Source: Leptolyngbya sp. FACHB-8 | GTDB lineage: Bacteria > Cyanobacteriota > Cyanobacteriia > Elainellales > Elainellaceae | DNA length: 64,000 nucleotides | Direction of reading: 5' to 3' | NCBI RefSeq assembly: GCF_014695575.1 | Contig: NZ_JACJOO010000084.1 | Span: 62,001 to 126,000 of the forward strand | Part shown: positions 2,788 to 49,399 of the stretch, piece after piece | Layout of the letters: each line of letters starts with the position of its first letter | Numbering within the stretch: the first letter of the stretch is position 1 | Notes under the pieces: model-generated | Seen by the model: the letters and a program-made list of their open reading frames with translations, nothing else | What the model was told of the DNA's origin: nothing | Database searches by the model: none | Made by a program: the position numbers and the translations under genes

Positions 2788-3633
2788 ATGGGAAACTGGG
2801 ATTTTGCAAATCGGATGGCCGTGATCGCCACAATGCATCGCAAAGAGGAGGCGATCGCCCCTATTCTTCACCAACTCGGCATCCAAACCCGAGTCCCTCA
2901 AGCTTTTAACACCGACCAATTTGGCACCTTTACTCGCGATATCAAGCGGCCTGCGGACCAATTGCAAACCGCAAAACTCAAAATCCAACAGGCATTGGAA
3001 TTGACCGGCGAAACTCTGGGCATTGCCAGCGAAGGCAGCTTTGGCCCCCACCCCTTTCTGCCCATGCTTCCCCTGAACCGTGAACTGGTGGTGCTGGTGG
3101 ACCAGGAGAGTGGACTGGAACTGGTGGGAGAAGCAACCTCCACCGAAACCAACTTCAGCCACGCCAGTATTACCAACCTGGAGCAAGCCTGGGAGTTTGC
3201 CCGGAAAGTTGGCTTCCCTTCCCACGGGTTGGTGGTAATGCCTGAGCCGGAAAGCTCTGAACATATCTATAAAGGCATTACAGACGAAACAGAATTAGAG
3301 GAACTGGCGGGATGGATGCTGGCCAGGTTTGGGCAGATCCACCTTGAAACCGACATGCGGGCCATGATGAACCCGACACGAATGGGGGCGATCGCCCAGG
3401 CCACCCAGGATCTTGTCCGCAAACTCCAGCAGCACTGTCCTCAATGTGACTATCCCGGCTTTGATGTGGTGCAACGGAAACCAGGCTTACCCTGCGGTCT
3501 CTGTGGCATGCCAACCGAACTTCCTGTCACAGCAATCTACCAATGCAAACAATGCCAATTTACTCAGGCTAAACCTGATCCCACCTCTCCCGATGTGGCC
3601 GATCCCGCCCAGTGTCCCTATTGCAATCCCTAA
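2788..3633 (+). CDS. DUF6671-like protein with C-terminal zinc ribbons
   Basis: The protein is 281 residues from the ATG at 2788; an in-frame TTG at 2728 would add 20 residues. The N-terminal half starts with a conserved-looking MAVIATMHRKEEAIAPIL and contains GIASEGSFGPHP. The C-terminal 70 residues hold four CxxC pairs (C217/C220, C236/C239, C253/C256, C276/C279), enough for two zinc ribbons. This matches cyanobacterial proteins I remember as DUF6671, whose function is unknown. The stop codon TAA (3631-3633) is also the left target duplication of a MITE-like element that begins at 3634. Confidence 0.7.
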   Translation: MGNWDFANRMAVIATMHRKEEAIAPILHQLGIQTRVPQAFNTDQFGTFTRDIKRPADQLQTAKLKIQQALELTGETLGIASEGSFGPHPFLPMLPLNRELVVLVDQESGLELVGEATSTETNFSHASITNLEQAWEFARKVGFPSHGLVVMPEPESSEHIYKGITDETELEELAGWMLARFGQIHLETDMRAMMNPTRMGAIAQATQDLVRKLQQHCPQCDYPGFDVVQRKPGLPCGLCGMPTELPVTAIYQCKQCQFTQAKPDPTSPDVADPAQCPYCNP

Positions 3634-3676
3634 GAAGATTTCCAAATAATGGGGATATTGTTTCTCAGAAATCTCC
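3634..3676. mobile_element. 43-bp deletion derivative of the 101-bp MITE-like family
   Basis: The ends (GAAGATTTCC at left, GAAATCTCC at right) and the inner segment AAATAATGGGGATATTG match the 101-bp element at 44311-44411. Exactly 58 bp, the hairpin arm and loop, are missing. The junction falls at TTTCC, present on both sides of the lost segment in the full copy. Flanking TAA triplets (3631-3633 and 3677-3679) fit the 3-bp target duplication of the other copies. Confidence 0.8.
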
Positions 3677-3678
3677 TA

Positions 3679-3777
3679 AGGATCATGCATTTAATAACCT
3701 GTAATTCTTTTTGTGGGAGTGGCGGCAGAGCCGCCACTCCCACAAAAAGAATTACAGGTTGTTTTGTTTGTGATCCT
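3679..3777. repeat. Long hairpin with 31-bp perfect stem inside AGGATCA inverted ends
   Basis: Arms 3696-3726 and 3730-3760 are perfect 31-bp inverted repeats with the loop AGA. AGGATCA (3679-3685) and TGATCCT (3771-3777) form outer inverted ends. No target duplication was seen, so mobility is only suggested. Confidence 0.7.
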
Positions 3778-13288: not shown

Positions 13289-13420
13289 CAGCAATTCTCA
13301 TTTTGAAATCAGGCCCGAAAACCGCGCGCCTTCGGCGCGCGGTTTTCGGGCCTCAAAGCCAAGAGTTTACGCCCTACGGGCGTGAACTCTTGGCTTTGAG
13401 GCCCATACTGAGAAATGCTG
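13289..13420. mobile_element. 132-bp double-hairpin MITE with 9-bp target duplication (copy 1)
   Basis: Terminal inverted repeats CAGCAATTCTCA (13289-13300) and the complement of TGAGAAATGCTG (13409-13420) match at 11 of 12 bases. Inside are a perfect 20-bp hairpin (13311-13330 with 13334-13353, loop TTC) and a second of about 22 bp (13353-13374 with 13378-13399, loop TAC). The element is flanked by the perfect direct repeat CACATAACC (13280-13288 and 13421-13429). A second copy of equal length lies inverted at 28507-28638. It has no coding capacity, so it would need a transposase supplied elsewhere. Confidence 0.9.
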
Positions 13421-13641: not shown

Positions 13642-15354
13642 ATGCTGGCAAAACAACTGCACTCCTGGCTGATTCCAACGACGGACGTTCCCACCGTTGC
13701 TCAGCGGCGGCTGTGGTTTTGGGTGAGTATGGCGATCGCGATCGCCCACCTCATCCCCGTCCTCTACGAAGCCTTCAGCAGCCCATACATCGTGCAGGAT
13801 GACGCTCGCCAGCACGTTTTCTGGATGTGGCGGTTCATTGATCCGACCCTGTTCCCGAATGATTTGATTGCCGACTATTTTCAATCCGTTGCCCCCTGGG
13901 CGTATACGCTGCTTTACCGGGGGTTGATGAGCCTGGGGCTAACACCGCTGCTGCTGAGCAAACTCATTCCTCCCGTGCTGGCACTGATAACAACAGGCCT
14001 GGCCTATCGCCTCAGTTTGCTGCTGTTGCCCGTTCCCTTCGTAGGAGCGTTGGCCGCGCTTCTAACCAATCAACTCATCTGGTCGCATGACGATTTGGCT
14101 TCTGCTAGCCCTCGTGCTTTCATGCTGCCAATTTTTCTGGCCTTTCTGCAGGCGCTCCTGCAACGGCAGATTGGTTGGAGCCTTATATTAATGGTGCTGC
14201 AGGGTCTGTTTTATCCACAATATGTCTTTGTATTCTCGGGGCTGCTCGTGCTGCAACTGGTGCAATGGCAGCATGGCAGATTGAGCTGGGCTCCGGAACG
14301 AAGGACATGGATATTAAGCCTATCAGGGTTGGTAGCGGCTTTTTTGGTACTCCTTCCCTTTGTCCTCAGCACCTCAGAATACGGCCCCGTCATCACTCGC
14401 CAGGAAGCTTTACAACTGCCAGAGTTCTACCCGGGTGGCCGCAGCGTCTTTTTTAACAACGAACCCTTTGCCTTTTGGATCAACGGGATGCGGAGTGGTC
14501 TCTTGCCGACTTTTAAGCCACCCATCATGGGATTTGGGTTGCTGTTACCCCTGCTGCTACGTTATCCCCAACGGTTTCCGCTGGTACGGCGGCTGCAAAA
14601 CCTTAACGTGTTCGTACAGCTACCTGCAGTGGCGATCGCCCTCTTCCTGGCAGCGCATCTGCTCCTTTTCCGACTCCACCTGCCCAGCCGTTACAGTGCC
14701 TATACCCTGCGCTTTACTCTCATCCTGGCAGCCGCCTGTAGCCTGGGAATCCTACTAGATGCGGCATTGAGAGCATTACAGGGCCGCCAGAGTTTATGGC
14801 GTTGGGGGGCCATCACTCTAGTCAGCCTGCTCGTCCTCGCCTACCCTTTCTACCTTTCTCCCGTCCCCAACACGAATTACACCGAAGGGCGGCTACCCAA
14901 AATCTACGGCTTTCTGGCCGAGCAGCCCAAGGATAGCCGCATCGCTTCTCTATCACGGGACGCCGACACCATTCCCACCTTCAGCCATCGCTCCGTCGTC
15001 GTCTCACGCGAGTTCACGATCCCGTACCATGTCGGCTACAGCAACCAGATCCGCCAGAGGGCGATCGACCTGATGGAGGCTCAATACTCCCGTCTCCCGA
15101 TTGCCTTAGGGGAAGTGATCCGAACCTATAACATTGATTACTGGCTGGTTGACGATAACGCATTCAAGCCATCGGCTCTGAAAAAGAGCTGGGTTCGTCA
15201 GTATCCAGAAGCCCTGCAATCGGCACTGGCCCAACTCTCGATTGGCCAGCCCTATCTAGCTCAAGTGGCGGATCAGTGTGAGGTATTGGAGGAGCGCGAT
15301 CGCCATCTCCTGGACGCCCAATGCATTCTCCGCACTATTAAGAAGCCCTATTAA
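13642..15354 (+). CDS. Polytopic membrane protein, GT-C-like (uncharacterised)
   Basis: The 570-residue protein has about ten to eleven hydrophobic helices and a soluble C-terminal region of about 130 residues. After the first helix comes VQDDARQHVFWMWRFIDP, an acidic pair in the position used by GT-C glycosyltransferases, and later SPRAFMLPIFL. I recognise the general cyanobacterial membrane-protein type but no named family. Role in surface glycan or lipid glycosylation is an inference from fold and from the divergent GT39-like neighbour. ATG at 13642 was preferred over an in-frame TTG at 13606; its ribosome binding site is weak. Confidence 0.7.
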   Translation: MLAKQLHSWLIPTTDVPTVAQRRLWFWVSMAIAIAHLIPVLYEAFSSPYIVQDDARQHVFWMWRFIDPTLFPNDLIADYFQSVAPWAYTLLYRGLMSLGLTPLLLSKLIPPVLALITTGLAYRLSLLLLPVPFVGALAALLTNQLIWSHDDLASASPRAFMLPIFLAFLQALLQRQIGWSLILMVLQGLFYPQYVFVFSGLLVLQLVQWQHGRLSWAPERRTWILSLSGLVAAFLVLLPFVLSTSEYGPVITRQEALQLPEFYPGGRSVFFNNEPFAFWINGMRSGLLPTFKPPIMGFGLLLPLLLRYPQRFPLVRRLQNLNVFVQLPAVAIALFLAAHLLLFRLHLPSRYSAYTLRFTLILAAACSLGILLDAALRALQGRQSLWRWGAITLVSLLVLAYPFYLSPVPNTNYTEGRLPKIYGFLAEQPKDSRIASLSRDADTIPTFSHRSVVVSREFTIPYHVGYSNQIRQRAIDLMEAQYSRLPIALGEVIRTYNIDYWLVDDNAFKPSALKKSWVRQYPEALQSALAQLSIGQPYLAQVADQCEVLEERDRHLLDAQCILRTIKKPY

Positions 15355-15380
15355 ACCTCAGTTCAGCAAAAGCTGCAGTG

Positions 15381-15417
15381 CCCATTGTGGTCTGTACTTC
15401 ACGTAGACCACAATGGG
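15381..15417 (+). terminator. Hairpin terminator after the GT-C-like gene
   Basis: CCCATTGTGGTCT (15381-15393) pairs with 15405-15417. It is followed by CGTTTTCG and lies 27 bases past the stop codon. Confidence 0.65.
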
Positions 15418-15590
15418 CGTTTTCGAGTACCGCACGTTATGCAGCACTCGATTATTCAGATCAAGTGCTGCTGGGGTCAACACCCCTTTTGCCAACAAAA
15501 CAGGCATCACAGGTGAATCGGTTGTTACGGTACCGTAAAATCTGTTAATAGCTGTTCAAAGTCAGACTTGCGGTTCCTCCAACCACCCAA

Positions 15591-28506: not shown

Positions 28507-28638
28507 CAGCAATTCTTAGTATGGGCATCAAAGCCAAGAGTTCACGCCCTACGGGCGTGAACTCTTGGCTTTGATGCCCGAAAACCGCGTGCCAAAGGCG
28601 CGCGGTTTTCGGGCCTGATTTCAAAATGAGAATTGCTG
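28507..28638. mobile_element. 132-bp double-hairpin MITE with 9-bp target duplication (copy 2)
   Basis: Inverted relative to the copy at 13289-13420 and equal in length. Ends are CAGCAATTCT and AGAATTGCTG. Perfect direct repeats AAATACTAT flank it (28498-28506 and 28639-28647). It differs from copy 1 by a few bases, including a paired change that preserves the second stem. It starts 32 bases upstream of the fmt start codon. Confidence 0.9.
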
Positions 28639-32444: not shown

Positions 32445-32471
32445 TTGGTTGGAGTAGATGCAGGATATTAA

Positions 32472-32572
32472 GGAGATTTCTGAGAAACAATATCCCCATT
32501 ATTTGGAAAAAAGGCGCGGCTTCGCCGCGCCTTTTTTCCAAATAATGGGGAAGTTCTTATCTGGAAATCTCC
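32472..32572. mobile_element. 101-bp MITE-like element (subfamily a, copy 1)
   Basis: Ends GGAGATTTC and GAAATCTCC, with a 27-bp perfect internal stem closing on TTC/GAA. TAA flanks it on both sides (32469-32471 and 32573-32575). The copy at 44311-44411 is the same sequence in the opposite orientation, so recombination between them could invert the 12 kb between. Confidence 0.9.
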
Positions 32573-32736
32573 TAACTCCTCACTGAGCAACCGTTTTATG
32601 CATAGGCTCAATGAAGTTGTGAAAGCAACAGGACGTTTCTTAAGGCACTTCGGAACCTATCCCTCTTAGCTACGTCCCCTTTTACGGCAGACTGATGAAT
32701 AAAGGGACCTATTACTCTGTGCGTAAACCTAAATCT

Positions 32737-42877: not shown

Positions 42878-43546
42878 AAGCTTTCTCCTTCACGCAATGA
42901 CAGGCCGCCAGGTCATCGTATCCGATTCGAATCCAATTTCCCGACAACGCTTTAATCCTACCAAGCGAAACTTTTATATGCTTATATCCTGAGTTCGGTA
43001 CATGCGCAAAAACAGGTAGTAAAAACCGCACCGAATGCGGTAAACCGAACTATCCCTTAACCGTTAATAAAAATGTTTATTTTTTAGATGCAAAACATTT
43101 CAGCATTCAACCGTAAATAGGAGTAGCCGAAATAGCAATTTAGATAGATTTAAGCCAATAACCCCTTGGTTGAATTGCCGTAAATCAGGTAGCTTTTAAT
43201 ACAAGTTTCTTCTGTATGAGCGACTGAAGAGCGATCGCCATCCATCCACTCATACGTTTCTAAGAAACACATCTTCTTGATATAGCATTACGCGCTTTAA
43301 CCACAGGGAGTCTGATAGTTCTACTTAGTAAGAGACTACCTTCCTGTACAGATCCAAAACTAAAACTTAGAGCACTGGCTTCTATATCGGCTGAATGTAC
43401 AAAAACTCGAATTCCTAAAATTCATCAAGAACGACATCTATGTCTTTTAACCGATACTGATATAAATAACGGGCTATAAAGTTAGCATTACTTTATTCTC
43501 AAATCATCCTGTTGACGGGCTATTAAAATTCATCTGGGGTACAACC
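42878..43546. other. 670-bp divergent spacer with one structured segment
   Basis: No supported gene. 42992-42999 (AGTTCGGT) pairs with 43044-43051, enclosing a hairpin ACCGCA/TGCGGT (43025-43030 and 43036-43041). The divergent promoters of the coiled-coil gene and the gene at 43547 must lie here. Confidence 0.5.
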
Positions 43547-44311
43547 ATGCACGCTTACGCCCAAACGAATTTACAGCTTTACAATCAGCTAGTTGAGGCT
43601 AATTATTCTGAGCCCGATTTGCAGTATGTCTTGAAGGGATACGAACTCGCTATCACACTCTTCTCAGGACGTTATCGCGCAAATGGCAAACCCTTTCTGG
43701 CACACCTGGTAGGAACAGCCAGCATCCTTGTAGCCCAAAAAGCTCCCATCCAGGTTGTTGTAGCAGGTCTTCTCCATGCTGCCTATGCTCAGGGAAACTT
43801 TGGCAGCGATCGCAACGGAGTAACCAAGACAAACCAGAAGACTGTCATCGCTGCTGTTGGCGCAGAAATAGAATCCCTCATAGCACACTACACGGCTTTT
43901 CCATGGAACGTGCAGTCTATGGAGAAAACCCTTGAGAACATCTCAACGCTAACGCCAGTTGAACAGCAAATTATTCTCATACGCCTTGCTAATGATCTGG
44001 AAGATCATTTGGATTTCGGGATGCTTTACTGCCAGAAGCTAGAGACTGCTCCTATAGCAGACGAAATTGCTCTGGCTACCAAAATAGGTAACATCTTAGG
44101 CTATGCATCTCTGGTAAAAGAACTCAGTCAAACCTTCCAGGAAAGCACTACCGTTGCTGTTCCCAATGTCCTGAAACGTAACGAAAAGGTCTCTTTCAAC
44201 AGTTCGCCTCAGGCCCAATCGTCCTCAGCCCAGTGGCAAATCCTTAAAAATCGGCTTCCTAGCCCAATCGTTTCAAGCCTCAAACAAGCCCGAGCCTTCT
44301 TGCGCACTTAG
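43547..44311 (+). CDS. Degenerate HD-like (RelA/SpoT hydrolase-like) protein
   Basis: The 254-residue protein has the layout of an HD phosphohydrolase: ANGKPFLAHLVGTASILV, VVVAGLLHAAYAQGNFG and IILIRLANDLEDHLD. The second motif, normally HD, is His-Ala, so the metal site looks broken. It resembles proteins I recall as DUF6817 found near glycan genes; function unknown. The C-terminal 60 residues are Ser/Gln-rich and basic. A 101-bp MITE-like element has inserted into its stop codon: the stop is now TAG, formed from TA of the target and the first G of the element, where TAA (TTA-AAC target) is reconstructed. Confidence 0.7.
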   Translation: MHAYAQTNLQLYNQLVEANYSEPDLQYVLKGYELAITLFSGRYRANGKPFLAHLVGTASILVAQKAPIQVVVAGLLHAAYAQGNFGSDRNGVTKTNQKTVIAAVGAEIESLIAHYTAFPWNVQSMEKTLENISTLTPVEQQIILIRLANDLEDHLDFGMLYCQKLETAPIADEIALATKIGNILGYASLVKELSQTFQESTTVAVPNVLKRNEKVSFNSSPQAQSSSAQWQILKNRLPSPIVSSLKQARAFLRT

Positions 44312-44411
44312 GAGATTTCCAGATAAGAACTTCCCCATTATTTGGAAAAAAGGCGCGGCTTCGCCGCGCCTTTTTTCCAAATAATGGGGATATTGTTTCT
44401 CAGAAATCTCC
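44311..44411. mobile_element. 101-bp MITE-like element (subfamily a, copy 2)
   Basis: Identical to the reverse complement of 32472-32572 in the shell and stem. Arms of 27 bp pair perfectly around TTC (44360-44362). TTA flanks it (44308-44310 and 44412-44414), the complement of the TAA seen at other copies. Its first base completes the stop codon of the preceding gene. Confidence 0.9.
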
Positions 44412-44422
44412 TTAAACGGGTA

Positions 44423-44490
44423 AGAGACGGTTTGAAACGTTGATTTTTCATGCGCTATGTCACAGAAAATCAGCGTTTCAAACCGTCTCT
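44423..44490. repeat. 25-bp hairpin between two MITE-like elements
   Basis: AGAGACGGTTTGAAACGTTG and the next five bases (44423-44447) pair with 44466-44490 with one mismatch. The GTTGATTTTTC segment resembles the hairpin at 36693-36729. Confidence 0.6.
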
Positions 44491-44492
44491 AA

Positions 44493-44593
44493 GGAGGTTT
44501 CTGCATAAGAATTTACCCAGAATGTTGGTGCTTTGCCCGCTTCGCGAGCAAAGCACCAACATTCTGGGGGTAATTTCATTACTGGAAATCTCC
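44493..44593. mobile_element. 101-bp MITE-like element (subfamily b, copy 1)
   Basis: Ends GGAGGTTTC and GAAATCTCC with TAA on both sides (44490-44492 and 44594-44596). The stem GAATGTTGGTGCTTTGC pairs with its complement across a TTCG-containing loop with one mismatch. It lies 81 bases from another family member. Confidence 0.88.
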
Positions 44594-44644
44594 TAAGACA
44601 ACGGGCGTGACTGAAAACACCCCTTGTCTTAGAGTTTATTAGAG

Positions 44645-45985
44645 CTAACCAGCAGAGCCCGTTGCATTGACTCCATCGCCTTCCGTGCCGAAATGCCAGA
44701 GCACGGCAGCGGCTTCAGCACGAGAGACGGGCTTTTTCGGCTGGAACAATGTAGTGAAGCCAAATGCCCGGCGAATATTAGACAAATCTGAGTTCTGGAA
44801 ATCCGCCAGCACCGCCTTTTGAGCCCGAGGTTCAATTTGGCCCACATCCTGAAAACCCCAGGTTTGTTGAATCGCATCCAGGCTTGCCTGGGGCAATGCT
44901 TGCCGCGTATCCAATGGCACCTTCCAGAGTATTAAGTCCTCCCGAGTCAGCGGATCATTGGGGCGGAAACGGACGGTGGTACTGCTACCTGATAGAGGAC
45001 TGGGAATGAGCCCCGCGTTCGCCAAGCCCTGGATCGCGGCAAAGTCCGGGTCGGAGGTAGGAACATCCTGGAATGTGGGGCGATCGCTCGCCACTGCCAA
45101 CCGGATCTGCTTCCCTGACGCATCGTTAAATAACGCGTTATTCGTTGCGACTAACCATCGCGCGTACTCTCGCCGGGTGATCGTCTGATTCGGCTTAAAC
45201 TCCTCGGGGTTTTGCGTCACTTTCAGCACCCCCAAATTCGCCAGGTCGCTAATGTAGGAACGCAACTCCGTAGGAGCCTGATCAATATCCGAAAAACTTT
45301 GTGGGCTCCCGGCAGGGCTAGGACGAGCAGACGCAGAGGCGTTAGGAGAAGGTCGGGTTGCCCAACTATCCGTCAGAGGTGCTTCTGTTTCTCCATTGTT
45401 AGCACTTCCAACCGTCGCGTCTCCTGGTGCGGCATCGGCGGTCGTACCCGAAGAACCGTAGCTCAGGGTAAATTCCGTCAAGGCTTCAGGACTGGGGGAC
45501 ACTGAAGGGGAAGGACTGCCTTCTGGGGAAGCCTGAGGGGAATCAGGTGACGTCTCAGGTGAGGGGCTGCCAGCTAGAGACGCATCCGCGAGTACCAGAC
45601 GCACCTCCAATCCATCTCGGGTGGCAAACAGGCGTGTCTCGTTGTCCGACTCCAGGCTCCAGCCATCTTTCTGAAACTCCTGTCGGTAAAACTGCGCCAC
45701 CTGCGCCGCAGCATCTCGCGTTGCCCACAGGGTCTGCACCTGGGAAGTCGCTCCACTGGTTCCACTACTGTCACCCGTGACCGATCGCAACACGGCCCCC
45801 GGGTACTGCGGAATCTCCTGAGGAAAATCTGGCGGCAAATTGGCCGTGGCTTGCAGATCGTTTGTCCCCTGTTGCAACTGCGGGTCAGGAGCAAAGGCTC
45901 CCTGTAGCCCTCCGCCTGCACAGGAACTCAGCGGCAGCACCACCGCCATCAGGATTCCAGCCCACACTGCTGAACGTCGCACCAC
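44645..45985 (-). CDS. S-layer homology (SLH) domain lipoprotein
   Basis: A 446-residue exported protein. The start (GTG) leads into a signal peptide ending in the lipobox LPLSSC. Residues about 35-135 form a compact domain (PDFPQEIPQYPGAVL, WATRDAAAQVAQFYRQEF). A Ser/Pro-rich low-complexity linker (SPSPETSPDSPQASPEGSP type) follows. The C-terminal 200 residues hold about three SLH motifs (DISDLANLGV-like, FQDVPTSDPDFAAIQGLANAG, PLTREDLILW, PVSRAEAAAVLWHF). SLH domains bind wall-linked polymers, so it should tether the outer envelope layers. Two MITE-like elements lie just downstream. Confidence 0.85.
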   Translation of the reverse strand: MVRRSAVWAGILMAVVLPLSSCAGGGLQGAFAPDPQLQQGTNDLQATANLPPDFPQEIPQYPGAVLRSVTGDSSGTSGATSQVQTLWATRDAAAQVAQFYRQEFQKDGWSLESDNETRLFATRDGLEVRLVLADASLAGSPSPETSPDSPQASPEGSPSPSVSPSPEALTEFTLSYGSSGTTADAAPGDATVGSANNGETEAPLTDSWATRPSPNASASARPSPAGSPQSFSDIDQAPTELRSYISDLANLGVLKVTQNPEEFKPNQTITRREYARWLVATNNALFNDASGKQIRLAVASDRPTFQDVPTSDPDFAAIQGLANAGLIPSPLSGSSTTVRFRPNDPLTREDLILWKVPLDTRQALPQASLDAIQQTWGFQDVGQIEPRAQKAVLADFQNSDLSNIRRAFGFTTLFQPKKPVSRAEAAAVLWHFGTEGDGVNATGSAG

Positions 45986-46148
45986 GATGTAGCCCTAACC
46001 TAATGTTTTGTAACAGCACTCCTACGCTAGCGCATCGGATAACGTGTCGGCGCAATTTTCTAGCTTGAGAAATAACGTACTACCATTTTTGGGATAGAGA
46101 CGCCACATGCAGCCTCTCTGTCCTCAAGCCCACAGCTATTACTGCAGG

Positions 46149-46967
46149 TTAAAGAAACGACAATTGGGCCCCGCCTTGCTCCTCATCGTAGAGCCGTTCA
46201 ACATCTCCCCGGCGATACATGGGCACGCTTCCCTGGCCCCGATTTGACCAGCGATACTCAACTCCGGCTTTTTCCATACGCGATCGCCCTTCCCCTTGAG
46301 AGCAACCTAACAACTGTGCCGCTAATTTCAGGGGCATCCACTGTCGGGAAAATCGCCGCAACAAGGCCGCATCGGATTCGTTCTGAATCTCGGTCAGTAA
46401 CCTTTCTGCTAACAGCCAGCACGCCTCCGTATCTGCCGCCGCCCGGTGCGATCGCCCTACCGCAAACTCAAAGTGACGCACCAGTGCCGGCAGACTGCGG
46501 GAGGGCAAGTCGGATAACATGAGCCGCGCTAGTTCCACGGTGCAAAGCTGTTCTGAGGCAGGACGGACAAATTCCTGATCGAGACGTTTATATTCGGCTT
46601 GAAGAAAGCCGTAATCGAAAGCTAAGTTGTGGGCCGTGAGGACCCCCTGGTTGAGCGATGACAGGAAATCGGGAAGGGCGATCGCTGCCACCGGAGCCTC
46701 ACAAACCATGGAGTTCGTAATCCCAGTAACATGCACAATTCTTTCAGGAATGCGTGTCTCTGGGTTGACCAACGTACTTTGACGATAGAAAACACCATCC
46801 TCCAGCCGAGCCTGAAGAATAGCAATTTCAGTGATCCGGTTATAGGCCGGAATGTGGCCTGTTGTTTCTAAATCCACTACTGTCAAAGGCCGCTGGCTAA
46901 TCTGCCGATAAAATGCCAGCAGATCAGAGGAGAGCATAGCTCCAGTGAATTTCTCTTGTTTCCCCAC
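46149..46967 (-). CDS. DnaQ-like 3'-5' exonuclease
   Basis: The 272-residue protein has an N-terminal DEDDh exonuclease domain: VVDLETTG (Asp/Glu pair), AHNLAFDYGFL and GRSHRAAADTEA (His and Asp). Residues about 195-272 are an added domain ending in SVPMYRRGDVERLYDEE, perhaps a small winged or DNA-binding module. It is not fused to a polymerase. The start is uncertain: GTG at 46967 has AAGGA upstream; ATG at 46937 is 10 codons later. A proofreading, repair or RNA-trimming role is possible. Confidence 0.85.
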   Translation of the reverse strand: MGKQEKFTGAMLSSDLLAFYRQISQRPLTVVDLETTGHIPAYNRITEIAILQARLEDGVFYRQSTLVNPETRIPERIVHVTGITNSMVCEAPVAAIALPDFLSSLNQGVLTAHNLAFDYGFLQAEYKRLDQEFVRPASEQLCTVELARLMLSDLPSRSLPALVRHFEFAVGRSHRAAADTEACWLLAERLLTEIQNESDAALLRRFSRQWMPLKLAAQLLGCSQGEGRSRMEKAGVEYRWSNRGQGSVPMYRRGDVERLYDEEQGGAQLSFL

Positions 46968-47028
46968 GAAAACGAGTCCTTATCTCACCATGTATATTCA
47001 ATTACTAACAATTTCAGGCACCTGTTAA

Positions 47029-47129
47029 GAAAATTTCCAGTAATAAAATTACCTCCGTGATGTGGGTGCTTTGCCCGCGAACCGGGCAAAGCACCCACAT
47101 CACGGGTAAATTCTGATGCAGAAATCTTC
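47029..47129. mobile_element. 101-bp MITE-like element (subfamily b, copy 2)
   Basis: The reverse complement aligns with 44493-44593 along its whole length. TAA flanks both sides (47026-47028 and 47130-47132). The stem is a perfect 25-bp or longer pairing around CGAAC, with paired substitutions relative to copy 1. Confidence 0.88.
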
Positions 47130-47185
47130 TAAGGCTTCTAAACAGTTAACCGCAATGTTTTTTTAGGGCGATCGCTCCATAATTT

Positions 47186-47590
47186 TTAGTGATCATCACC
47201 TGCATATATCCACATGGGTTCTGTTTTCCCGGCCCTTGTAAACCCACATTTTTCGTAGAAGGTGATCGCCTCCTGATCGGCGACCAACATGTGCATATGC
47301 ATCCCCTCATACCGCTTCTTCAAAATCTCCATCATCCCTCGACCAATACCTTGCCCCTGATAGTCTGGACTCACTAAAAGATGGGGATAATAAACAACCA
47401 AAAATCCATCGGAGATTGCATTACCAATTCCAACCAGTTTCTCTCCATCCCACGCCGACACTAAACTATGGGAATTTATCAATGCTTGATAGAGAGCTTG
47501 AGGTTTTTGAGCCGAAGACCATCTGTTCGCTTCGTATAACGAAAGAATTTTATCAATTGAAATATCTCGCTTCTCTGAAAACGTAATCAT
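47186..47590 (-). CDS. GNAT-family N-acetyltransferase
   Basis: A 134-residue single-domain GNAT enzyme. The acetyl-CoA loop is LLVSPDYQGQGIGRGMMEIL (Q-x-x-G-x-G type), followed by ITFYEKCGFTRAG and a final MWIY. Substrate unknown. ATG at 47590. It lies between a MITE-like element and a stretch rich in small hairpins, with no operon partner. Confidence 0.88.
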   Translation of the reverse strand: MITFSEKRDISIDKILSLYEANRWSSAQKPQALYQALINSHSLVSAWDGEKLVGIGNAISDGFLVVYYPHLLVSPDYQGQGIGRGMMEILKKRYEGMHMHMLVADQEAITFYEKCGFTRAGKTEPMWIYAGDDH

Positions 47591-47823
47591 TACTGTTGCG
47601 ATTACTTACTACGGAAAGTTGATACTAAAAAGTGTTTTAAAGCTGGCTGAAAGGAACGTTTTTATGCGCTTCGCATATGAAGAATAGCTTTCAAAGCAAA
47701 CTCTGGGGGAAAGCGGCAGGGATCAAGCCATGTTTGAATGCAGACCAACTTAAACGGACGAGTATTCGCTCAAACTGAAGCAGCAAGCCTTTAGGCTTCA
47801 AATAGAAAACGGCTTCAAAAGTG

Positions 47824-47855
47824 AATAGGGAGCGAATAGCTATTCGCTCCCTATT
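47824..47855. repeat. 16-bp perfect palindrome without loop
   Basis: AATAGGGAGCGAATAG (47824-47839) is followed directly by its complement (47840-47855). The rest of the 47591-47932 spacer holds another imperfect hairpin near 47650-47700 and no gene. Confidence 0.6.
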
Positions 47856-47898
47856 AGCCTTGGGTTCAAGATACTTGAAAAGCCCGGCAATCATCTAA

Positions 47899-47923
47899 TT
47901 TTGAGGGGCAATGCCCCTCAAAA
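47899..47923 (-). terminator. Intrinsic terminator of crhR
   Basis: TTTTGAGGGGC (47899-47909) pairs with GCCCCTCAAAA (47913-47923) around AAT, 9 bases past the crhR stop codon on the minus strand. Confidence 0.75.
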
Positions 47924-47932
47924 CCAGGCAAA

Positions 47933-49399
47933 TTAGTGGGACTTGGGAGCCGAATGCTGCGGCGAAGCAGGGCGCGAACGCGGGATCGGTTTCTTCTGAG
48001 GCCGAGGCACATCAGAACCAGAGCCAGAGCCAGAGCGAGACCGCGAAGAGCGAGGCCGGGGAGATTCTGTGGGCTCATCTACCCAGATTTGATCGGACCG
48101 CATCCAGGCAGGACGGGTCTGGTCATAGGCCATTTGCAGAGCTGCCGCGGCGATCGCCCGAATGTCGTACTCTTCGCTCAGGTTCGACACGATCGGGAGG
48201 AAGGAGGCGAGGCGATCGCCCACCAACGCATCCCGCAATTGCGACTGCAGCGACTCCAGATGACGCGCTTCGATTTCGGCACGAGTTGGAATCTGGCCGA
48301 TTTCGAGCCGCTGCCGAGTGTGCTGCTCGATCTCCCGTAGCTTACGCTTATCCAGGGGATGCACAATCGATACCGCCGTACCTTCTTTACCGGCACGACC
48401 AGTACGACCAATCCGGTGAACGTAGCTTTCTACGGTGTCGGGCAAATCGAAGTTGACCACGTGGGTCAAGTCTTCAACGTGCAGACCCCGAGCTGCGATG
48501 TCGGTCGCCACTACCCAGCGCACCTGACGCTGACGGAAGCGGAGCAACAGACGCTCCCGTTGAGACTGGCTGAGGTCGCCATGGTATTCATCCACGCTGT
48601 AGCCGGCCGCTTGCAGTTGCCGGGTCAGATCCGCGGCGGTCTTCCGGGTCCGCACAAAAATCAGCGCAGATTCGGGATCTTCCAGTTCGAGGATGGGTTG
48701 CAGGGCACGAGCCTTGGTCCAACCACGGGGCACCATGTAGGCAATCTGGTTAATCCGAGTGGGGGTCGCCTTGGGCTGCTCAATCTGTACGGATACAGGA
48801 GTCTGTAGGAATTTGGCAGCCAATTCGCGGATGGTTGGATCCATCGTGGCCGAGAAGAAGGCGGTCTGACGCTGGGCCGGAGCCTTGCTCAGAATCTTCT
48901 CAACGTCCTGAATGAAGCCCATGTTGAGCATTTCATCCGCTTCGTCCAGTACCAACCAATTCAAGTCATTCAGTACTAGATCGCCCCGCTTGAGGAGGTC
49001 TAGCACACGACCGGGGGTACCCACAACGATTTGTGTGCCCCGTTGCAGACGGTTAATTTGAGCGTCAATCGCCTGACCACCGTAAACGGGCAGGACCCAA
49101 AGGCGGCGATCGGTACTCAGAGTACGAATCGATTGATAGACCTGAAGCGCCAGTTCACGGGTGGGCGTCAAAATCAGCGCCTGCACCGTAGGTTGATTCA
49201 GGTTCACTTGCTCCAGGATGGGTAGAGAAAACGCGGCGGTTTTTCCCGTACCCGTTTGTGCTAGGCCCACCACGTCCCGGCCGGACAGCAGATGGGGGAT
49301 CGCTTGAGCTTGAATGGGGGTGGGAGTCGTAAATCCAGCTTTTTCTAGGTGACGAACACGCGCCTCAGACAGGCCCAAGCTAGCAAAAGAAATTGTCAT
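47933..49399 (-). CDS. crhR: DEAD-box RNA helicase, CrhR-like
   Basis: A 488-residue RNA helicase. Motifs: Q motif (GFTTPTPIQAQAIP), Walker A AQTGTGKT (47-54), PTRELALQ, TPGRVLDLL, DEAD (152-155), SAT, DIAARGLHV and HRIGRTGRAG. A C-terminal domain and a basic Arg/Ser/Gly/Pro-rich tail (about residues 440-488) follow. It starts 9 bases after rimO. In Synechocystis the rimO-crhR operon is known, and CrhR is induced by cold and redox poise of electron transport. That order and strand are kept here, which supports the name. Confidence 0.92.
   Translation of the reverse strand: MTISFASLGLSEARVRHLEKAGFTTPTPIQAQAIPHLLSGRDVVGLAQTGTGKTAAFSLPILEQVNLNQPTVQALILTPTRELALQVYQSIRTLSTDRRLWVLPVYGGQAIDAQINRLQRGTQIVVGTPGRVLDLLKRGDLVLNDLNWLVLDEADEMLNMGFIQDVEKILSKAPAQRQTAFFSATMDPTIRELAAKFLQTPVSVQIEQPKATPTRINQIAYMVPRGWTKARALQPILELEDPESALIFVRTRKTAADLTRQLQAAGYSVDEYHGDLSQSQRERLLLRFRQRQVRWVVATDIAARGLHVEDLTHVVNFDLPDTVESYVHRIGRTGRAGKEGTAVSIVHPLDKRKLREIEQHTRQRLEIGQIPTRAEIEARHLESLQSQLRDALVGDRLASFLPIVSNLSEEYDIRAIAAAALQMAYDQTRPAWMRSDQIWVDEPTESPRPRSSRSRSGSGSGSDVPRPQKKPIPRSRPASPQHSAPKSH

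Follow-up and report, generated by a model that had tools for sequence, protein, structure and literature searches.

Five members of a family of short palindromic elements lie in the 64-kb window, by which we mean the whole stretch of Leptolyngbya sp. FACHB-8 DNA that was analysed. Direct reading of the window confirmed four copies of 101 bp and one 43-bp derivative, as an earlier note on this DNA had described them. Two of the full-length copies belong to subfamily a, at positions 44311-44411 and, reversed relative to the former, at 32472-32572; the other two belong to subfamily b, at 44493-44593 and, with diverged ends, at 47029-47129. The 43-bp derivative of subfamily a occupies positions 3634-3676. 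On the positive strand all five lie between identical triplets, again as described: TTA/TTA for the 44311 copy (44308-44310 and 44412-44414) and TAA/TAA for the copies at 32472 (32469-32471 and 32573-32575), 44493 (44490-44492 and 44594-44596), 47029 (47026-47028 and 47130-47132) and 3634 (3631-3633 and 3677-3679). The count of five copies stood; their span, which had been given as 41 kb, is actually 43.5 kb (3634-47129). The proposed common end sequence held overall, the copies at 3634, 44493 and 47029 deviating from GGAGATTTC by 1-2 bases at one or both ends (the left end of the 47029 copy is GAAAATTTC, with two differences), and the two subfamilies do have a common shell and unlike stems.

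When the subfamily-a copy at 44311 was folded, the region 44332-44390 resolved, together with the spacer statistics (see below), into two perfect 28-bp arms, 44332-44359 and 44363-44390, with the 3-bp spacer TTC (44360-44362) between them. The spacer of the 32472 copy is inverted relative to this one, i.e., it reads GAA once both copies are set to the same orientation. The fold z-scores of the four 101-bp copies ranged from -10.3 to -13.3. The 43-bp copy at 3634 is explained by a deletion between two TTTCCA repeats, which stand at positions 6 and 64 of a subfamily-a copy; loss of the 58 bp between them leaves 43 bp. The 44311 copy was identical over 101/101 bp to at least 12 other places in the genome (40 of 94 candidates scored) and had no match in the plasmid collection, and Rfam at gathering scores gave no match anywhere in the window. 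The motif GCGATCGC, which we take to mark cyanobacteria, occurred 89 times in the window against 0.88 expected, and on that assumption the window looks cyanobacterial.

Other inverted repeats were seen in the same DNA. The interval that separates the MITEs at 44311 and 44493 is largely taken up by an inverted repeat of 25 nt whose loop measures 18 nt (44423-44490), and a palindrome with 48-nt arms, of another sequence family, begins directly after the 43-bp derivative (3679-3777). The hairpins at 13348-13404 and 28523-28579 are related to each other (GGGCmTCAAAGCCAAGAGTTyACGCCC), and each adjoins a second hairpin of the GCCCGAAAACCGCG kind.

Number, length and ends of the elements

In the genome, assembled as 6.93 Mb in 95 contigs, a relaxed pattern of the ends gave 154 matches and an exact-end pattern 61 elements, with none in the reversed control of either. 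We read 109 of the 154 relaxed matches (six of 115 script matches were the same place twice), which comprised 50 copies of subfamily a and 59 of subfamily b. Their length was 101 bp in 96 copies, 102 bp in six, 100 bp in four, 99 bp in two and 97 bp in one, within a script range of 92-108 bp that places truncated copies like the one at 3634 outside the length count. In a wider search (93-123 bp) with 61 elements, the 50 that were listed all measured 97-102 bp. The fixed length claimed in the earlier note was thus borne out as a narrow one, with no widely varying copies within either length range. The 26-bp end consensus, GGAGATTTCTAGnAAAGAATTTACCC, was drawn from 55 distinct ends of 39 elements. 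The family has transposon-type terminal inverted repeats and a target duplication (see below), and is short, non-coding and present in high copy number, i.e., it has the features by which MITEs are recognized.

Besides the window's own genome, 5 of 39 relatives carried exact-end elements, of 101-122 bp, and of 144 further genomes sampled from the class, three had elements that fit a stricter pattern (88-118 bp, T-any-A on either side). The cores shown in the elements of other genomes were unlike those of the window genome. Among the matches listed, related shells occurred in records named Leptolyngbya, Pseudanabaena, Scytolyngbya and similar, and also in one MAG labelled Deltaproteobacteria (L081), in a multi-genome scan where many of the matches outside cyanobacteria are probably due to chance. 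One other genome of the genus contained no element; a 17-kb query aligned with it in 15 pieces of 66-79% identity, too diverged for empty sites.

Target duplication and empty sites

The left and right flanking triplets were identical in 102 of the 109 copies, as compared with a mean of 47.1 and a maximum of 65 in 10,000 shufflings, and not identical in the other seven, whereas the fourth flanking base agreed in 16 copies only. The agreeing triplets were TAA in 52 copies, TTA in 45, TAT in two, TCA in two and TGA in one; a genuine duplication of 3 bp shows most clearly in those other than TAA and TTA.

Empty sites were sought among paralogous repeats of the same genome. Six copies had matches across the junction, and L281 was the clean case: this subfamily-b copy (G000:C61:13347-13447, corresponding to L281:601-701) is inserted in another dispersed repeat as AAGTGC-TTA-(101 bp)-TTA-TTTTGG. 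At 11 other places in the same genome (L158 and L255 being counted as one place) that repeat has no insert and a single triplet, TCA in eight, CCA in two and TCG in one, and these alignments, of 75-93% identity, are gap-free within 10 bp of the junction. The relative G013 (L143 = L226) has one insert-free place of the repeat, with a single TTG, at 69% identity and again free of gaps over this distance. A second, weaker empty site was provided by L271, where GAGG-TTA-(101 bp)-TTA stands against the uninserted GAGG-TTA of L006, in an alignment of 76% identity with gaps, including a 1-base gap near the junction. The pair L291 and L270 was ambiguous as an empty site, with a 2-base gap at the junction, and the spanning matches of L243, L286, L303 and of L291 with itself were same-locus matches, uninformative in this respect. 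From the identical triplets and the one-triplet empty copies of the repeat it follows that the elements are transposed MITEs with a 3-bp duplication. Both the MITE-like nature and the TAA/TTA duplication that had been proposed were therefore upheld, the latter on paralogues, whose uninserted sites hold one triplet.

The repeat in which L281 is inserted constitutes a second dispersed family, with tandem hairpins TTTTGGCGTGCGC... and CGAGTGCCGCGC..., seen at L281:701-800, in the window at 15354-15451 and at 10 further places in the genome. The window copy, which is not a MITE, is diverged (75.5% identity in the alignment).

Relation to ISAzo13 insertion sequences

Ten full-length insertion sequences of 1302-1344 bp, with MITE-type ends around a PF07592-type transposase, were found in relatives and in named plasmids. 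PF07592 is the ISAzo13 family transposase. The scan accepted any inverted ends with T-any-A triplets 1150-1500 bp apart, and GGAGATTTC was not required. Five of the elements came from the relatives: L220 (1323 bp, TTA/TTA), in which both ends are GGAGATTTC; L193 (1305 bp, TTA/TTA) and its second copy L194 (1305 bp, TAA/CTA); L200 (1316 bp, TAA/TTA), with stop codons inside the transposase gene; and the full-length L229 (1344 bp, TAA/TTA). The Pfam E-values for PF07592, 1.5e-63 in L220 and 5.9e-63 in L193, refer to the catalytic frames. The plasmids of Nostoc sp. ATCC 53789 (TAA/TAA), Nostoc sp. HK-01 (TTA/TTA) and Geminocystis sp. NIES-3709 (TAA/TAA) had elements with GGTGATTTC-type ends, and those of Acaryochloris sp. 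'Moss Beach' (CAA/CAA) and Nostoc sp. UHCC 0302 (CAA/TTA, without duplication) likewise had full-length elements. The flanking triplets were identical in six of the ten insertion sequences and not so in L194, L200, L229 and L334.

The ends of the ISAzo13-type elements share 18-23 of 25 positions with the MITE consensus, and the first 9 end bases are the same in the MITEs and in L200, L220 and L229, at both ends. The kind of terminal repeat is common to both, as is the 3-bp duplication, mostly of TAA or TTA; the MITEs differ in having no transposase gene and in measuring 101 bp against about 1.3 kb. In the four insertion sequences compared with the MITEs the longest exact match was 16 bp, at the ends, and interior matches did not exceed 10 bp. 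That ISAzo13 yields 3-bp duplications is stated in the excerpted text of PMC10045372. On their sequence, the ends identify the MITEs as of ISAzo13 type, i.e., of the PF07592 transposase family, and such a transposase would have moved them in trans.

Not all related transposases were accompanied by such ends. For L218, L221, L222 and L236, each a close transposase or a fragment, no end pair was found, and L337 and L338, less closely related plasmid loci with the annotation 'ISAzo13 family transposase', had no ends of MITE type. The more distant ISAzo13 elements L195, L223, L230, L238 and L140 had GGG-type ends, also at T-any-A triplets. A search for the parent by GGAGATTTC at the first-found ISAzo13 loci gave one end only (L139); the link came via the ends in relatives.

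The window's genome has a sole PF07592 element (L277:1751-3089, on G000:C86), of 1339 bp, flanked by TTA/TTA and with an open frame of 415 aa, whose best end pair, GGATTCTTAAATTAATAAG..., matches 11 and 12 of the 25 positions of the MITE consensus. No insertion sequence with MITE ends was found in this assembly, either by the PF07592 search or by a search for close transposases at E 1e-20. The exact end pattern occurred at 10 places in the genome, all of them MITEs, in a form that excludes most subfamily-a ends and would miss variants, and no transposase was recognised at 16 candidate loci with lone ends among the listed matches of the multi-genome scan. A cognate transposase in the same genome is usual for derived MITEs and is not required. 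Because no cognate insertion sequence was found in the assembly, the MITEs are probably orphans, whose parent was lost, is unassembled, or was once supplied by a plasmid.

We also observed that in seven of nine elements examined (L193, L220, L229, L200, L195, L238 and L223) the ISAzo13 transposase is split between two frames, and that an AAAAAAAC run lies within their overlap or close to it. L230 and L133 did not show this, and one more distant gene in a Nostoc record is annotated as one coding sequence of 1232 bp, a length not divisible by three. As read from these sequences, the two frames suggest programmed frameshifting or slippage.

Spacer and arms of the palindromic core

Within subfamily a, 25 copies were alike at the other 98 bases and had the spacer TTC in 13 cases and GAA in 12. 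In the same manner, 26 copies of subfamily b were alike outside the spacer, which was TTC in 12, GAA in 11 and another sequence in three. Spacer orientation was unlinked to the TTTCTCAG/TTTCCCAG marker (21/17 and 6/4, Fisher p = 1.0), and the spacer must therefore have flipped more than once.

Both arms were identical over 25 bases in 43 of 50 copies of subfamily a and in 47 of 59 of subfamily b. Among the distinct non-consensus arm pairs, the same change or changes were present on both arms in 6 of 13 (subfamily a) and 5 of 17 (subfamily b), although some of the subfamily-b variants (GTG class) probably go back to a single inherited change rather than to independent events. The other pairs, 7 of 13 and 12 of 17 respectively, were non-identical, with one-sided or mixed changes, so that arm correction is incomplete. 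The 99-bp copy L353 reads as an outward conversion, the left-arm GAATTTACCCAG being found inside its right end where other subfamily-b copies have GAAATTACCCCCAG. Apart from such cases, the asymmetric MITE ends remain distinct in nearly all copies read. Loops in both orientations were also present in the tandem-hairpin family, in a small sample: TTT twice, AAA twice and TTC once in H1, and GTT five times, AAC once and TTC once in H2.

Discussion

Taken together, these results are best read as a family of ISAzo13-type MITEs, probably orphans, whose core is kept paired by template switching, a joint reading to which we assign a probability of about 0.88. An ISAzo13-type transposase would mobilise the MITEs in trans, with a 3-bp target duplication, and this mobility needs no palindromic core for its explanation. 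The core is most likely kept paired by the DNA polymerase, which would switch template between the hairpin arms and copy changes from arm to arm; the stem would be variable yet paired because a change is copied to the opposite arm. The same switching between arms would also invert the 3-base spacer. We infer the trans mobilisation, the loss of the parent and the template switching; the ends and their likeness to those of ISAzo13 elements, the duplication, the empty sites, the two spacer forms and the paired arm changes were observed directly. In the excerpts of PMC8604942, arm homogenisation and spacer inversion, including a gaa/ttc case, are ascribed to template switching, and the excerpts of PMC2903610 describe palindrome-associated inversions in chloroplast DNA.

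Pairing could instead be kept by selection on an RNA hairpin, a terminator or an mRNA stabiliser, through compensatory mutations. The predicted folds are very stable, as their z-scores indicate, and the layout of subfamily a, A6-GC8-loop-GC8-T6, is terminator-like in sequence. Of 95 copies examined for gene context, 8 were inside an ORF, 17 at an ORF edge and 70 had ORFs on both sides, and 27 of these 70 lay between convergent ORFs, by a crude ORF rule and with no control. A hairpin needs, however, neither a 3-bp direct duplication nor fixed ends nor insertion into another repeat, and selection on pairing does not produce a 1:1 inversion of the spacer, which makes this origin of the paired stems improbable. 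A terminator scan of positions 43000-48000, by a rule under which a T tract within the stem goes uncounted, gave five sites as compared with 5.7 on average after shuffling, and the three MITEs of this region contained none of the five; judged by layout, it is possible that the MITEs serve as terminators.

Three other explanations concern the spacer itself. Homologous recombination or gene conversion between dispersed copies might invert it and exchange the arms, and partners are plentiful, with about 150 near-identical copies in both orientations; we nevertheless consider this rather unlikely, since each arm of subfamily a offers a perfect match of no more than about 28 bp, conversion between copies of opposite orientation would be apt to swap the asymmetric ends, which are distinct in nearly all copies read, and a less numerous palindrome family also has both loop orientations (in small counts). 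Both orientations in a palindrome family without MITE ends likewise speak against a spacer randomised at transposition by an excised or single-stranded hairpin intermediate. Every copy is a transposition product and the ratio is near 1:1, as would suit such an intermediate, but PF07592, together with a weaker match to DDE_3, marks the transposase as a DDE enzyme, and the duplication is of 3 bp; enzymes of this type need no hairpin of the element interior, and we find an inversion at transposition hard to credit. The 1:1 ratio might, finally, be a short-read assembly artefact of palindromic repeats: the assembly is in 95 contigs and the 101-bp repeat has about 150 copies, and therefore some repeats could have been given the wrong spacer orientation. 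Yet the nearest end-specific base is about 27 bases from the spacer, so that an assembly word longer than about 31 should link them, both spacer forms should still have to occur in the reads, and such events are reported at single loci in yeast and chloroplast in the excerpts of PMC8604942 and PMC2903610. An artefact is possible but unlikely, and it is the explanation that we trust least.

Template switching between the arms, the reading that we prefer, may be carried one step further, although tentatively and with somewhat less than even confidence: the hairpin may be a self-repairing unit, in which arm-to-arm copying is fast enough to bring the spacer to equilibrium before other bases change, and in which the core can be replaced wholesale while the ends are kept. 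If this were true, wholesale core replacement would account for subfamilies a and b as well as for the unrelated cores found in other cyanobacteria, and the family would serve as a reporter of replication template switching that occurs naturally within a genome.

Beyond the earlier note, the present analysis adds the ISAzo13 family, an assembly that apparently lacks a cognate transposase, and a proposed reason for the variable paired core. A palindromic repeat family of cyanobacteria thereby gains a likely parent, ISAzo13, and stems that differ between copies while staying paired are offered an explanation. The MITE itself belongs to a known kind; the near 1:1 spacer inversion is the interesting part, and dozens of copies that differ only in spacer direction would allow the rate of template switching and its genetics to be measured in a bacterium.

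Like the bacterial MITEs Correia, RUP, Nezha and others, the elements described here are short, multi-copy and non-coding, with terminal inverted repeats and a target duplication; the difference seen here lies in the ends and the likely parent. Nezha, taken from a mention, is reportedly another cyanobacterial MITE, attributed to Zhou in 2008. Among the open-licence PMC papers listed, none was seen to describe MITEs of ISAzo13 or spacer inversion in MITEs. Anabaena sp. 90 contains 147 complete or partial MITEs, 132 of them intergenic, with a predicted fold for a sample group, and these, compared with ours by description only, are filed as type II, with no resemblance to the inverted repeats of that genome's insertion sequences (PMC3542288). 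Arm homogenisation and a short, reversible spacer inversion are common to our MITEs and the template-switching loci of PMC8604942, and reversible inversion of a short spacer is common to them and the chloroplast inversions of PMC2903610. As excerpted, the cases in these two papers are single loci followed across strains or species, whereas in our case a single genome supplies the replicates, as dozens of copies that are otherwise identical.
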